A program made the position numbers and the translations under genes. The notes under the pieces are model-generated. The model was not told the origin of the DNA, made no database searches, and saw nothing but the letters and a program-made list of their open reading frames with translations. 36,200 bases of DNA, taken from contig PLMA01000045.1 of assembly GCA_003141455.1 (NCBI GenBank), positions 1 to 36,200 on the forward strand. The letters are read 5' to 3'. Source of the DNA: Chloroflexota bacterium (GTDB taxonomy: Bacteria > Chloroflexota > Limnocylindria > Limnocylindrales > CSP1-4). Positions 1 to 35,102 of the stretch are shown here, piece after piece; position 1 is the stretch's first letter, and each line of letters starts with the position of its first letter.

Positions 1-363
<363 letters not shown>

Positions 364-2107: not shown

Positions 2108-3751
2108 CTAGCCCACGTCTCCGACGTCCACGACGTCGTCGCCGTAGATGCGCCGGAACTCGGTCAGGAGGCGGGAGCTGTCCGGATCCGCGGGCAGCGG
2201 CGACACTTCCACGTTCGCGGCGACGCAGCGGACACTCACGGGGATGCCGAGCACGCGGCTGACTCCATCTTCCAGGATGGCACGTCGCCGCTCCGCAACG
2301 TCTTTGAAGAAGCTCTGGGCCTCCGGGAAGCCGAGCGTAACGACCGATCCGTCCACGCTCACGGGGCGGCAGGCCACGATGAGCGGCCTGGTTGGGGGGC
2401 TCTTGCTCACCAGTTCGACGACTTCGGCCCAGCGCTCGAGAAGCAGAGCCAGGGTGGGCCCCGTTCGGGGCCGGTGGGCCTTCGGCGCTCCGGGGATAGC
2501 GGGCTCGGCTTCCTGGGCAGCCGAGGCGGCGGGAGCGGGCGCCGCGGGCTCGGCCGGGGCCTTGCGACCGGCGGTTGGCCTGGCGCTCGGATGCTCGTCG
2601 GCGGCCGGACGACTCAGAGCCACGGGAGGTGGAGAGGCCGCGGGTTGGGCCACCGCGGTTCGGTCGATCGAAACGGGGGGCTGGAGCCGCGAGTGAGGCC
2701 GCGCTTCCGGAGGAGCAAGGAGCTGGAGCTCGAGCTGCAACCGCAGCCCGCCGGGGCCGGGGTGCCTGGGGTCGATCGAGGCGAGGCGCCGGGCTGCGGC
2801 GCCGAGCGCCTCCGGACCCGCGGCGGCCAAACCGACGGGATCCCCACGACCCAAAGAGGCGACCAGGGCGACGCGCAGCCGTTCGATCGCCTGCTCGGCA
2901 AAGGCACCCAGGTCGCGCCCCAGCTCCTCCATCCCATCGAGCAACTCGATGCCCGCGACAGCGTCGCAGCGTACCAGCGCGCCCAGGAAGGCCTCGACCG
3001 TCTCCTCGTCCACCAGGCCGAGAACCTCCCTCACTCGATCGGCGGTAAGGGCTCCGGTGTCTGTCGCCAGCAGCTGATCGAGCATCGACTCGGCGTCTCG
3101 CATGCCTCCCGCGGCCAGGCGCGCGATCAGCTCTATCGCCTGGGGCTCGGCGGTTCGACCGTCCCCCTCGAGGATCGTCCGCAGCTTTCCGGAGATCTCC
3201 GGGACGGTCATGCGCCGGAAGTCGAAGCGCTGCACTCGAGACAGGACGGCCGGCCGGATCCCGTTGCTGTCGGTCGTGCAGAAGATGAATACCACGTGGT
3301 CGGGGGGCTCTTCCAGTGTCTTGAGGAGGACATCCCAGCCCTCCTTGATGCGCTGGACCTCGTCGACGATGAAGACCTTGTACCGGAGATCCGAAGGTGC
3401 GGTGAAGATCCGTGGCAGCAGTTCGCGCATGTCGTCGACGCGGTTGTTAGAGGCGGCGTCCATCTCGCTGACGTCCAGGGCGCGTCCTTCGCGGATGGCC
3501 ACGCACGAGGGGCAAGCGTCACACGGCTCGCCGTCACGCAGGTCGGAGCAGTTGAGTGCCTTGGCCAGGATTCGGGCCAGGGAAGTCTTGCCCGTGCCGC
3601 GCGGCCCCACGAAGAGGTAGGCGTGGAAGGTTCGGCCCGATCGGACGCCGTTGCGCAGGGTTTCGACGACGGCCTGCTGGCCAACGATCTGGCCGAAGGT
3701 CTGGGCGCGCCAGCGGCGGTAGATAGCCTGACGCGGTGCGGTCGAACTCAC
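2108..3751 (-). CDS. dnaX: DNA polymerase III subunits gamma/tau
   Basis: This is the ATPase motor subunit of the replicative clamp loader. The 547-residue product begins at a GTG with the conserved opening YRRWRAQTFGQIVGQ. It has a Walker A (GPRGTGKTS, ~residue 50) and the four-Cys zinc module (C-S-D-L...C-D-A-C-P-S-C). The Walker B is VDEVQRI, where most homologues have VDEVHML. The sensor/SRC segment is AVLSRVQRFDFRR. Residues ~350-440 are a Pro/Ala-rich linker. The C-terminal part resembles the tau region (VTLGFPEAQSFFKDVAERR). I see no clear slippery heptamer for a gamma form. It is first in the dnaX-ebfC-recR operon, with the SRP RNA gene immediately upstream. Confidence 0.97.
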   Translation of the reverse strand: MSSTAPRQAIYRRWRAQTFGQIVGQQAVVETLRNGVRSGRTFHAYLFVGPRGTGKTSLARILAKALNCSDLRDGEPCDACPSCVAIREGRALDVSEMDAASNNRVDDMRELLPRIFTAPSDLRYKVFIVDEVQRIKEGWDVLLKTLEEPPDHVVFIFCTTDSNGIRPAVLSRVQRFDFRRMTVPEISGKLRTILEGDGRTAEPQAIELIARLAAGGMRDAESMLDQLLATDTGALTADRVREVLGLVDEETVEAFLGALVRCDAVAGIELLDGMEELGRDLGAFAEQAIERLRVALVASLGRGDPVGLAAAGPEALGAAARRLASIDPRHPGPGGLRLQLELQLLAPPEARPHSRLQPPVSIDRTAVAQPAASPPPVALSRPAADEHPSARPTAGRKAPAEPAAPAPAASAAQEAEPAIPGAPKAHRPRTGPTLALLLERWAEVVELVSKSPPTRPLIVACRPVSVDGSVVTLGFPEAQSFFKDVAERRRAILEDGVSRVLGIPVSVRCVAANVEVSPLPADPDSSRLLTEFRRIYGDDVVDVGDVG

Positions 3752-3814: not shown

Positions 3815-4085
3815 GTAGTGCCGTGCACCCTCCGTCGATCGACCGACCCCGCGCCCACAGTTGGTGGTGGCTCAGACCAGGCCGTTCCGCGGCACCCGAC
3901 AGTCATCGCTTAGTGCTGCTTCCTTCCGGATCTGACACGGTTCGCGAGCCGCCGCTGCGCGGGACCCGGCCCTCAACGTCACCAAGAACGGCGGCCTTCG
4001 AGGACGGAGACCTGGGGAGGGAATTCAGCCCTGCTGGAGCGGATTGCAGGTACAGGGCACCGCTAGTTCCCCGCCTAGCACGGCT
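3815..4085 (-). ncRNA. ffs: Signal recognition particle RNA, large (Alu-containing) bacterial form
   Basis: This is the RNA scaffold of SRP, which binds Ffh for co-translational membrane targeting. Read on the minus strand, the S-domain loop motif TCCGGAAGGAAGCAGC is unmistakable (~3932-3917). It is flanked by helix 8 and helix 5 arms: GGCCGGGTC (3971-3963) pairs with GGCCTGGTC (3883-3875). The RNA extends beyond the 4.5S core. GCCGTGC (4084-4078) can pair with GCACGGC (3826-3820), and the 5' part (GTGCTAGGCGGGGAACTAGC..., GGTGCCCTGTACC) resembles the Alu domain of Gram-positive and Chloroflexota-type large SRP RNAs. The total is about 270 nt. The ends are set by that closing helix and by the promoter. 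It sits just upstream of dnaX, as scr does in Bacillus. Confidence 0.93.
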
Positions 4086-4863: not shown

Positions 4864-4951
4864 TGGCGGAGAGGGAGGGATTTGAACCCTCGATGGGTTG
4901 CCCCATACCGCATTTCCAGTGCGGCGCCCTAGGCCACTAGGCGACCTCTCC
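4864..4951 (-). tRNA. tRNA-Ser(GGA), CCA encoded
   Basis: On the minus strand an 88-nt tRNA begins GGAGAGG and closes CCTCTCC-G-CCA. It has a long class II variable arm, an anticodon loop CTGGAAA (anticodon GGA, reading UCC/UCU) and a T-loop GGTTCAAATCC. The CCA tail is encoded. It lies about 66 nt downstream of tRNA-Ser(CGA) on the same strand and may be cotranscribed with it. Confidence 0.96.
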
Positions 4952-5017: not shown

Positions 5018-5103
<86 letters not shown>

Positions 5104-5237: not shown

Positions 5238-5717
5238 TCAGCCCAGGGCGTTCACGCCTTCGGGGGCGCGCGTCTGCTCGACGGGAAGAGCTTGAGAGAA
5301 GAGCTCCTCCGCCTCTTCGCAGCGGATCCCGCTCACGATCCTGAGCCTGCGAGCGAGCCGGTCGTCCTGAGCGAGCTGGATCACGCCCCCGGCCGCCCCG
5401 TCGACGCGATTCGGGACGGCGAAGACGAGCGCTTCGACGTCGCTGGCGAGCAGCGCGCCCACGCACATCGGGCACGGCTCGCGAGTGACGAAGATGGTCG
5501 CGTCGGCGAGGCGGGCGCGGCCCATCTTGCGGGTGGCCTCGCGAAGGGCGACCACGACTGCGTGGGCGGTTGGGTCATTGGATTCCTGGACCCGATCGTG
5601 GGCTCGAGCCACCATCGCGTCGTTGACCACGGCTACCGCACCGATAGGCGTCTTGCCCTGATCGAACGCAATCTGCGCCTCTGCCAGGGCCTCGCCCATG
5701 AACAACTCGTAGTTCAT
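5238..5717 (-). CDS. tadA: TadA-family tRNA adenosine deaminase homologue lacking the catalytic Glu
   Basis: TadA normally deaminates A34 of tRNA-Arg(ACG) to inosine. The 159-residue product has the family fold and length: MNYELFMGEALAEAQIAFDQ, then TPIGAVAVVN, DPTAHA, EPCPMCVGAL and SGIRCEEAEELF. The zinc ligands His52, Cys82 and Cys85 are intact. The HAE motif, however, reads HAV: Val54 replaces the proton-shuttling Glu, and the codon GTC is two changes away from GAA or GAG. The usual Asn of the 'AHN' segment is Asp41. The position upstream of SRP RNA-dnaX matches B. subtilis yaaJ (tadA), so it is likely the orthologue rather than a distant paralogue. I chose the ATG at 5717 by homology; the open frame extends 31 codons further 5'. 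It may be a pseudo-enzyme or have a new substrate. Confidence 0.85.
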   Translation of the reverse strand: MNYELFMGEALAEAQIAFDQGKTPIGAVAVVNDAMVARAHDRVQESNDPTAHAVVVALREATRKMGRARLADATIFVTREPCPMCVGALLASDVEALVFAVPNRVDGAAGGVIQLAQDDRLARRLRIVSGIRCEEAEELFSQALPVEQTRAPEGVNALG

Positions 5718-5724
5718 GCCGGGA

Positions 5725-6627
5725 TCATACAGGCCGGCGGTCCGCATCCGCGTCGCCCGTCGCGCCAGTCCGTATGGCGCGGGCCAGGACCGACATGTCC
5801 TCGTCGCCATGGCCTTCGGCCATCAGCTCGTCCTCCAGCGAGGCCGTCAATGCGGCCATCGGAAGCGAGACGCTCAGACCGCGCGCTAGTTCGAGCGCGA
5901 TCCCGAGGTCCTTTCTGTGCAGCGCCAGCCGGAAGCCCAGCGGGTACGCATCGTCGATCATTCGGCCGCTCCGATTGGCCAGCACCCAGCTCTGGGCCGC
6001 CCCTCCCGAGAGCGCCTCGACCAGCCGACGCGCATCCAAACCGGCGCGCATCCCCAGGATGATCCCTTCAGCCACGCCCAGGTAGGCGCCGCTGATGATC
6101 ACCTGATTCACCGCCTTGCCGGCCTGGCCGCTGCCGAGGGGCCCGAGGTGTGTGATCGTCTTGCCCATCACCTCCAAGACGGGCCTGGCCCTGATCACGG
6201 CCGCCTCGTCGCCGCCCGCGAAGATCGTGAGCGTGCCGAGCCGCGCCCCTTCCGAGCCGCCGGACACGGGCGCGTCCACCATGCCCACTCCCCGTTCCGC
6301 GAGCCGCCGCCCGAACTCCCTGGTGGCATCGGGCGAGATCGTGGAGCAGTCGATCACCAGGCTTCCCCGCCCCGCGCCTTCGATGATGCCGCCCGGGCCG
6401 AACAACACCGCCTCGACGTCCGGCGTGTCCGATACGCAGACCACGCTGATCTCGGAGCGAGTCGCGACGGCTGCTGGCGATTCGGCCGCCTGAGCGCCCA
6501 GCTCAAGCAAGGGCCCGGCCCGGCCCGGAGTACGGTTCCAGACCGTCAGCGGTGCCCCGGCCCGAAGTAGATTGGCGGCCATCGAGGCACCCATGGTGCC
6601 CAGGCCAACGAACCCGATGCGCTCCAT
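5725..6627 (-). CDS. 3-hydroxyisobutyrate dehydrogenase / beta-hydroxyacid dehydrogenase family protein
   Basis: This is an NAD(P)-dependent short beta-hydroxyacid dehydrogenase of 300 residues. The start MERIGFVGLGTMGASMAANL carries the GxGxMG dinucleotide motif. The substrate-binding motif DAPVSGGSEGA is present, as is the catalytic-lysine motif GSGQAGKAVNQ. A C-terminal helical domain (FRLALHRKDLGIALELA) follows. Members oxidise or reduce 3-hydroxyisobutyrate, tartronate semialdehyde or related acids, and the substrate cannot be read from sequence. The ATG at 6627 is supported by the Rossmann start. It ends seven bases before the tadA-like start, so the two are probably cotranscribed. Confidence 0.9.
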   Translation of the reverse strand: MERIGFVGLGTMGASMAANLLRAGAPLTVWNRTPGRAGPLLELGAQAAESPAAVATRSEISVVCVSDTPDVEAVLFGPGGIIEGAGRGSLVIDCSTISPDATREFGRRLAERGVGMVDAPVSGGSEGARLGTLTIFAGGDEAAVIRARPVLEVMGKTITHLGPLGSGQAGKAVNQVIISGAYLGVAEGIILGMRAGLDARRLVEALSGGAAQSWVLANRSGRMIDDAYPLGFRLALHRKDLGIALELARGLSVSLPMAALTASLEDELMAEGHGDEDMSVLARAIRTGATGDADADRRPV

Positions 6628-6771
6628 TCCGCTCCTTTGGGACTGCGGCGATCCGGGGCGAGCATACCTTTCGCGCCCGACGGGCGGCGCGTGGCGGAAC
6701 GGCCCAAAAGGACTCATTCGGCGGCGCACATGGCCCTGCCAAATGCACGAGCAGCCCTCACAATACTGATC

Positions 6772-7870
6772 GTGAGGGAGCTGCCCAGAGCCATTGCCAA
6801 GCGCGTTCGCCTGCCTCGCAGGCGGGCGGCCCTGGCCGTGGCGATCCTCGCCGTCGTCGCCGTCGCGACCGCGGCCGCGGTCGTTCCATTGGCGGTCGGC
6901 AGCCGCACGGCCGAAGGGCCAGCGCCCGCTGCCGGCACCACCGGTTTCCTCGGCGCCGGCAACCCTTCCTCGGCGACGACACCGGCATTGTCGTTCGCCC
7001 ACCGGATTCGATCACGCGAGCGGCCAGAGCGCCTCCCCGCAGCCGACGGCGAGCTGGAGCGCGCCGACCGGGACTCCGACGGCAGAGCCATCTCCGAGCG
7101 CCTGCGTACCGGCTCCCTACGTGGCCTGTGACACAACCGCGGCGCCTACGCCCCTGCCTTCGGCCGATCCGGAGGCCACACCGTTCGGGCTGCGCGTGCC
7201 CATCCTCGAGTATCACCGTGTGAAGCCGTTCGACACGGAGACCGGCTACCAGGTGGGCCTCGTCGTGCCGCCGGAAGTGTTTGCGGCCCAGATGGACGCG
7301 CTCTATGCCGCGGGCTGGCAAACGATCACCATGGGCCAACTGGGCGATTACATGCGGTTGGGCATCTCGCCAGCTTCCAAGAGCTTCGTCGTCACGCTGG
7401 ACGACGGGTATGACGACGGCTTCGTCTATGCCTTCCCGATCCTGCATCGAGATGGCTTCGTGGCCACCTTCTTCATGATCGGCTCCCTGATCGACCGGCC
7501 CGGAAGACTGACCGTCGACCAGATGCAGAGGCTGGCGGGCGACGGCGATGAGATCGGCAACCACTCCATGTCGCACGAGGACATGCGCTACATGCCGGCG
7601 GATCGGCTGGTGACCGAAACCTTCGGAGCCTCGGCGCTGATCGCCCGGGCCATCGGCGAGTGGCCCAAGTCGTTTTCGTATCCGGTAGGTTTTACGGGCC
7701 CTGCGGTGATCTCGGCCCTGTCGAAATGCCCGGGCATCGAGACGGCCGTGATCCAGGGCGGCACAAAGCCCCAGACGTGGCCGAACCGCTTCGGGCTGAC
7801 GCGAATCCGCGTCGGCCCGGGGACCAACGCACAAGATCTAGTCGAAAGGATGAACAGGTACCTGCCATGA
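6772..7870 (+). CDS. Membrane-anchored polysaccharide deacetylase (NodB/CE4), with a frame break
   Basis: The C-terminal part (~7180-7870) is a clear NodB-homology domain, which removes acetyl or similar groups from surface polysaccharides. It shows VPILEYHRV, TLDDGYDDGF (motif 1 Asp-Asp) and GNHSMSHEDM (zinc-binding His pair, motif 2). A Ser/Pro/Thr-rich linker precedes it in the same frame from ~7010. A plausible basic N-terminus and membrane anchor (PRRRAALAVAILAVVAVATAA) lies in a different frame, opening at a GTG (6772) and running to ~6990. The span is not a multiple of three, so a one-base shift between ~6985 and 7015 is likely: an assembly indel, or a real frameshift. If the shift is an error, this is a signal-anchored extracytoplasmic enzyme. 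The stop overlaps the next gene's ATG (ATGA). Confidence 0.75.
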
Positions 7871-8731: not shown

Positions 8732-8824
8732 GGAGAGGTCGCATAGCTGGTCTAGTGCAGCGGTTTGCTAAACCGCCAGGTGGGGTAACCTGCCTCGAGG
8801 GTTCGAATCCCTCCCTCTCCGCCA
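8732..8824 (+). tRNA. tRNA-Ser(GCT), CCA encoded
   Basis: This is a 93-nt class II tRNA with acceptor GGAGAGG/CCTCTCC, discriminator G and encoded CCA. The anticodon loop is TTGCTAA (anticodon GCT, reading AGC/AGU). It has a long variable arm and a T-loop GGTTCGAATCC. tRNA-Arg follows 28 nt downstream on the same strand. Confidence 0.96.
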
Positions 8825-8852: not shown

Positions 8853-8928
8853 GCGCCCGTAGCTCAGTGGATAGAGCGCCAGGTTGCGGACCTGGAGGTC
8901 GTGGGTTCGAGTCCCGCCGGGCGCGCCA
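8853..8928 (+). tRNA. tRNA-Arg(GCG), with G rather than A at position 34
   Basis: This is a 76-nt tRNA with acceptor GCGCCCG/CGGGCGC, discriminator G and encoded CCA. The anticodon stem is CCAGG/CCTGG around the loop TTGCGGA, giving anticodon GCG at 8886-8888. Most bacteria read CGU/CGC/CGA with tRNA-Arg(ACG), whose A34 becomes inosine through TadA. A GCG anticodon needs no deamination and would read only CGC and CGU. See the TadA-like gene at 5238-5717. Confidence 0.95.
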
Positions 8929-34790: not shown

Positions 34791-35102
34791 GGCCACGGGG
34801 CCAAGGCGAACGGGGCCGATGGCATCGCCGCGTTCCTCAGCTGGCCGGGGGCGCCCCCTCCGGGGGTGGAGTCGGGCGTTCCGTGGAGTCAGCGGGCCGG
34901 GATCGTCGGCGACTCGCGGAGCGGGGCCTACGCGCACCGGCGACGGCGCAATGCGACCAACGACTCTATTGCTGCTCCGCTTGTCCCGGTACTATCCGGG
35001 CGTCACGACGGGGAGGCATTGACGCGCGGCCCAAACCCTGGCCGCCGGGACCGCGCCGAGCCACTGGCGAGACCGACCCTCCGTAGGAACGGAGTGTGCT
35101 CC

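Follow-up and report, generated by a model that had tools for sequence, protein, structure and literature searches.

A conserved TadA-derived protein with valine in place of the catalytic glutamate in Chloroflexota that carry tRNA-Arg(GCG)

TadA, the deaminase of tRNA A34, is usually treated as essential for bacterial decoding of CGN codons. At the tadA position in a draft genome of the Chloroflexota class Limnocylindria stands a gene whose product has valine where the catalytic glutamate should be. This locus raises the question of what has become of TadA in these bacteria, and of whether a deaminase without its key residue is a relic or a protein with another task. The window, by which we mean the whole stretch of DNA analyzed (36,200 nt), is one contig of a metagenome-assembled genome (MAG) of 3.07 Mb in 68 contigs, estimated to be 92% complete.

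The gene lies on the minus strand (positions 5238 to 5717; reading frame from 5717 down to 5241, stop codon at 5240-5238) and encodes a pseudo-deaminase of 159 aa. Matches to Pfam families PF00383 and PF14437 and the predicted structural model agree on a cytidine-deaminase-like TadA fold. The translation includes the motifs T-A-H52-A-V54 and EPC82PMC85. The initial annotation had described retained zinc ligands (His52, Cys82, and Cys85), a change of HAE to HAV, and an Asp at position 41, all of which the translation bears out. It is likewise correct that the Val codon GTC is two changes from any Glu codon; this is codon 54 (5556-5558, minus strand), the site of the catalytic Glu in TadA (E59 in Escherichia coli). 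The protein scores 107.5 bits against the NCBIfam TadA profile, versus a cutoff of 150. We rejected this cutoff as a test of activity because it is uninformative: HAE-type TadAs of family f3 also mostly fall below it.

Downstream of the gene on the same strand are tRNA-Ser(CGA) (5018-5103) and tRNA-Ser(GGA) (4864-4951), both predicted by ARAGORN, followed by genes for the large SRP RNA (3821-4083; RF01854, 177 bits), dnaX (2108-3751; PF13177, PF22608, and PF20964), ybaB/ebfC (1680-2066; PF02575), and recR (1053-1670; PF13662, PF21176, and PF02132). Rfam and Pfam matches thus uphold the earlier placement of the gene at the tadA position of a tadA-SRP RNA-dnaX-recR block, to which we add ybaB and the two tRNA-Ser genes between tadA and the SRP RNA. 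HAE-type tadA genes of sister family f3 occupy an identical block (tadA, tRNA-Ser(cga), tRNA-Ser(gga), SRP RNA, dnaX, ybaB, recR). Adjacency of tadA and tRNA-Ser(cga), found in the pseudo-TadA family, recurs in HAE-type loci of other Chloroflexota. The window gene is the positional, in-place orthologue of tadA.

Directly upstream is a gene for a 3-hydroxyisobutyrate dehydrogenase-like protein (HIBDH; 5725-7002, minus strand; PF03446 and PF14833), which is possibly cotranscribed with tadA in family f1. We considered it as a fixed partner of tadA, but the f4 loci that were read show no such adjacency, and an obligate partnership is unlikely. At the other end, 16S rRNA follows directly beyond recR (window positions 1-362; also L194, 14025-14572), which places the rRNA operon right next to the tadA block. 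The window also contains a c-di-GMP-II-GAG riboswitch aptamer (35003-35086, plus strand, 71 bits).

To place the substitution in context, we compared 81 aligned homologues with HAE-type TadAs of f3 and of other Chloroflexota. In E. coli numbering, the residues lost from the pseudo-TadA family are E59, N46, K110, N127, F148, F149, and R153, nearly all of which are retained in the f3 TadAs. Residues H57, C87, C90, and E85 are kept in all 81, as are P54 and T55 without exception, and a GAAG segment is nearly invariant. Summaries of work on Staphylococcus aureus TadA with RNA attribute the grip on the anticodon loop to N46, residues near 108-111, and the C-terminal helix (PMC3711424, PMC8216470). 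Judging from the alignment, the proton-shuttling Glu and nearly all of the anticodon-loop contacts are gone, and the protein has kept its fold and all three zinc ligands. The AlphaFold model (pLDDT 90.5) is consistent with this pattern. The solved structures closest to the protein are TadAs, and the best match of the model is to that of Bacillus subtilis (7cph; TM-score 0.86, rmsd 1.4). The last helix of the model stops at residue 142, and the FF..R helix end is missing. The tail (145-159) is predicted to be disordered and is not conserved in the family, with no conserved C-terminal zinc ligand seen. HAV proteins are also more acidic than HAE TadAs (median pI of 5.2 versus 6.4). At residue 103 (D108 in E. 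coli), 53 of the 81 family members have Asn for Asp, a substitution that was also selected when TadA was evolved in the laboratory into base editors; the match is probably a coincidence.

A protein that keeps its zinc site might also keep a zinc-bound water, and could then either catalyze a different reaction or act as a sensor of nucleobases or nucleosides. The invariance of the zinc ligands and pocket motif would fit this alternative, as would the Asp that replaces Asn46 in 59 of 81 members and the proximity of the fold to guanosine and guanine deaminases. However, to our knowledge all characterized deaminases of this superfamily require the glutamate. Furthermore, Val, Ile, and Thr all occur at the site, and a few members have the motif HPV or HAT; this suits a hydrophobic position in the protein interior more than a newly acquired catalytic one. 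We consider this explanation unlikely.

The tRNA complement of the genome bears on whether TadA has a substrate. The tRNA-Arg in the window (8853-8928, plus strand), 3 kb from the pseudo-tadA gene, was confirmed by both ARAGORN and Rfam to have the anticodon GCG (G34) in place of the usual ACG. Beside it is tRNA-Ser(GCT) (8732-8824, plus strand; ARAGORN), its constant neighbor in the f1, f2, and f4 loci that were read. The Arg anticodons of the genome are GCG, TCG, CCG, TCT, and CCT; neither tRNA-Arg(ACG) nor any other A34 tRNA is present among the 44 tRNA genes of the 92% complete assembly. Searches of the same assembly for a second TadA homologue, HAE type included, returned none besides the HAV protein. 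Because the class is represented here almost only by MAGs, an ACG tRNA or second TadA may have gone unassembled in any single genome. In the genome as assembled, there is no A34 substrate for TadA. Separately, a tRNA-Ile with the anticodon TAT, seldom used by bacteria, was noted in L022 (1501-1576; G000:C32:74389).

These observations weigh against a second alternative, an active A34 deaminase built as a heterodimer in the manner of ADAT2/ADAT3. The HAV protein would then be its structural subunit, and the HAE partner would be encoded elsewhere. The identical Glu-to-Val change, the retained zinc site, and the C-terminal helix shortened as in ADAT3 speak for such an arrangement (PMC8216470, PMC7713142). 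It is nevertheless very unlikely, given that the genome has neither an HAE TadA nor an A34 tRNA to serve as substrate and that the 159-aa protein has no ADAT3-like N-terminal RNA-binding domain.

We then asked whether anticodon and enzyme change together across the class. A tRNA-Arg pattern search of 151 genomes found, among the matches listed, GCG in 72 f1, 9 f2, and 16 f4 genomes and ACG in 14 f3 genomes; the pattern misses tRNAs with other D arms, so only anticodons found, and not absences, count as evidence. Where tRNA-Arg lies in the named flanks, its anticodon is GCG in 47 of 47 cases. Both f1 and f4, GCG families, have the HAV pseudo-TadA. In f2, a GCG family with genomes of 1.1 Mb, TadA was searched for and none was found. 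The single f2 locus that was read across the site has the HIBDH gene, a small unrelated ORF, and tRNA-Ser(cga). That 135-aa ORF, at the place of tadA in genome G043 (L298, 4378-4785), resembles by eye a pyridoxamine phosphate oxidase-type protein. All 18 of the f3 TadAs read are HAE type with the C-terminal FF..R end.

Two f3 genomes, G056 and G114, have tRNA-Arg(GCG) instead of ACG. In G056 there is no TadA at the locus, and the rest of the block (tRNA-Ser, SRP RNA, and dnaX) is intact. In G114 (L297, 7835 to 7626), the N-terminal 43 residues of TadA are in frame with the C-terminal helix and the zinc-binding and catalytic core is absent; contamination in this one MAG is 6%, and the core deletion could be an assembly join. 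We rejected tRNA-Arg(TCG) as a marker of the anticodon switch, since it also occurs in f3 genomes with ACG.

More broadly, GCG was found in 211 of 400 genomes of the phylum, where it goes with absence of TadA. HAV was looked for outside the class and not found, the 27 TadAs read from other families of the phylum all being HAE type. Of seven genomes outside the class with an HAE TadA, five have ACG, one has no pattern match, and one, G327 of family f66 (L285 at 7671, and L286), has a pattern match to tRNA-Arg(GCG). The correlation between GCG and loss of active TadA is thus not perfect, with G327 as the sole exception outside the class. Genome G060 (family f5), which has no TadA, contains a sequence (L209, about 1690-1760) that resembles tRNA-Arg(ACG) but lacks a T arm; ARAGORN makes no call there. 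The window had first suggested that replacement of inosine by G34 decoding is linked to loss of TadA activity, and this is supported by the class- and phylum-wide comparisons and by the two f3 cases.

Is the pseudo-TadA gene then decaying? At the site of the catalytic Glu, the 81 aligned homologues have Val in 78, Ile in 3, and Glu in none, and all four Val codons are used (GTG 44, GTC 30, GTT 3, and GTA 1, with ATC 3 for Ile). Relatives at the same tadA locus have Val or Ile everywhere except for one Thr. Zinc ligands of the form H..PCxxC are present in 81 of 81. The median dN/dS (omega, Nei-Gojobori) is 0.076 over 171 within-genus pairs, and change at synonymous sites is about 13-fold faster than at nonsynonymous sites. 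Rates of this kind indicate that the gene is constrained at the protein level by strong purifying selection, and conservation over two families (f1 and f4) indicates that the product does something. In the tree, the HAV proteins group together in a single clade (support 100/100) whose stem is long (1.24 changes per column), and the root among TadAs is weakly resolved. A long stem of this kind is what one would expect if the function had shifted and constraint had then returned.

The same rates make it highly improbable that selection acts solely on the DNA or transcript of the gene, for example as spacing or a promoter for the tRNA-Ser genes, SRP RNA, and dnaX. Its constant place ahead of tRNA-Ser(cga) and the SRP RNA could be read this way, but the excess of synonymous change points to the protein, and G056 has tRNA-Ser, SRP RNA, and dnaX without the gene. 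In a draft of 68 contigs, with a real TadA remnant in a sister family, one might suspect a mistake in sequencing or assembly, or one isolated pseudogene in decay, but Val or Ile in all 81 homologues from many assemblies rules out the former, and together with four Val codons, open frames, and the low omega leaves the explanation next to no probability.

We therefore return to loss of the TadA substrate after a switch from A34 to G34, with retention in f1 and f4 as a noncatalytic, zinc-binding pseudo-deaminase, a reading that we regard overall as quite probable. The genome would decode CGU and CGC by the G34 tRNA-Arg(GCG), and CGA and CGG by the TCG and CCG tRNAs. The switch would have left TadA without a substrate, the anticodon presumably changing first and the enzyme second. 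Subsequently, TadA may have decayed or vanished in some lineages (missing in f2 and G056, a coreless remnant in G114). Judging from established TadA chemistry, the pseudo-TadA should be unable to deaminate A34. The initial annotation had left it between lost activity and repurposing. Purifying selection (dN/dS of about 0.08), the retained zinc site, and the retained fold now favor the second of these, a protein kept for a different role, over decay.

In f1 and f4, the protein may be a zinc-stabilized binding or scaffold protein and would probably be dimeric. Its partner is proposed to be a protein or small ligand rather than an RNA to be edited; the pseudo-catalytic domain in ADAT3 has a comparable structural role. 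We lean towards a role of this kind, exercised with a partner new to the protein. It also seems more likely than not that TadA, once freed from tRNA, was recruited for a new function in the cell as a conserved zinc-binding pseudo-deaminase, perhaps a regulatory scaffold or nucleobase sensor, and that the change that made ADAT3 was here repeated independently.

The clade offers a natural experiment in which a G34 anticodon is accompanied by three outcomes for the enzyme within one class (a conserved pseudo-enzyme, clean loss, and a core-deleted remnant), and sister family f3 still shows the ACG/HAE state at the same locus. It parallels, in bacteria, the way in which ADAT3 arose, and it makes testable what job a dead deaminase may have once editing ends. 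It also calls for caution in annotation, as calls of tRNA deaminase based on the domain only would predict inosine in genomes that cannot make it.

Compared with known systems, the protein resembles bacterial TadA, the tRNA A34 deaminase, in fold, zinc ligands, and locus. It differs in having Val or Ile for Glu, in loss of the anticodon-loop contacts and FF..R end, and in a genome without an A34 tRNA. The open-license literature searched yielded no account of a bacterial TadA that is conserved yet lacks the glutamate. Use of tRNA-Arg(GCG) instead of ACG is known in Thermotogae and Spirochaetes (PMC8007984) and in CPR (PMC8629427). These groups, like other Chloroflexota, share with the present genomes a G34 tRNA-Arg and no active TadA; in the other Chloroflexota sampled with GCG, however, no TadA homologue is left, whereas f1 and f4 have kept and conserved the pseudo-TadA. 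Loss or weakening of TadA has also been described in mollicutes, where TadA is likewise dispensable once CGN decoding changes, but A34 is kept in the tRNA and the remaining TadAs keep the active-site AE motif (PMC3711424). The closest likeness is to ADAT3/Tad3, the inactive subunit of ADAT2/ADAT3. That subunit has Val for the catalytic Glu, retains zinc, has a short last helix and no anticodon pockets, and plays a structural part (PMC8216470, PMC7713142). The pseudo-TadA has the same Glu-to-Val change at the same site, the zinc ligands, a shorter last helix, and loss of the anticodon-loop pockets. Unlike ADAT3, it has no N-terminal RNA-binding domain, its deaminase domain starting at residue 2; no ADAT2-like HAE partner was found in the genome; and there is no inosine system left to serve. 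By this analogy, the protein looks like an independent bacterial reinvention of the inactive half of ADAT2/ADAT3.
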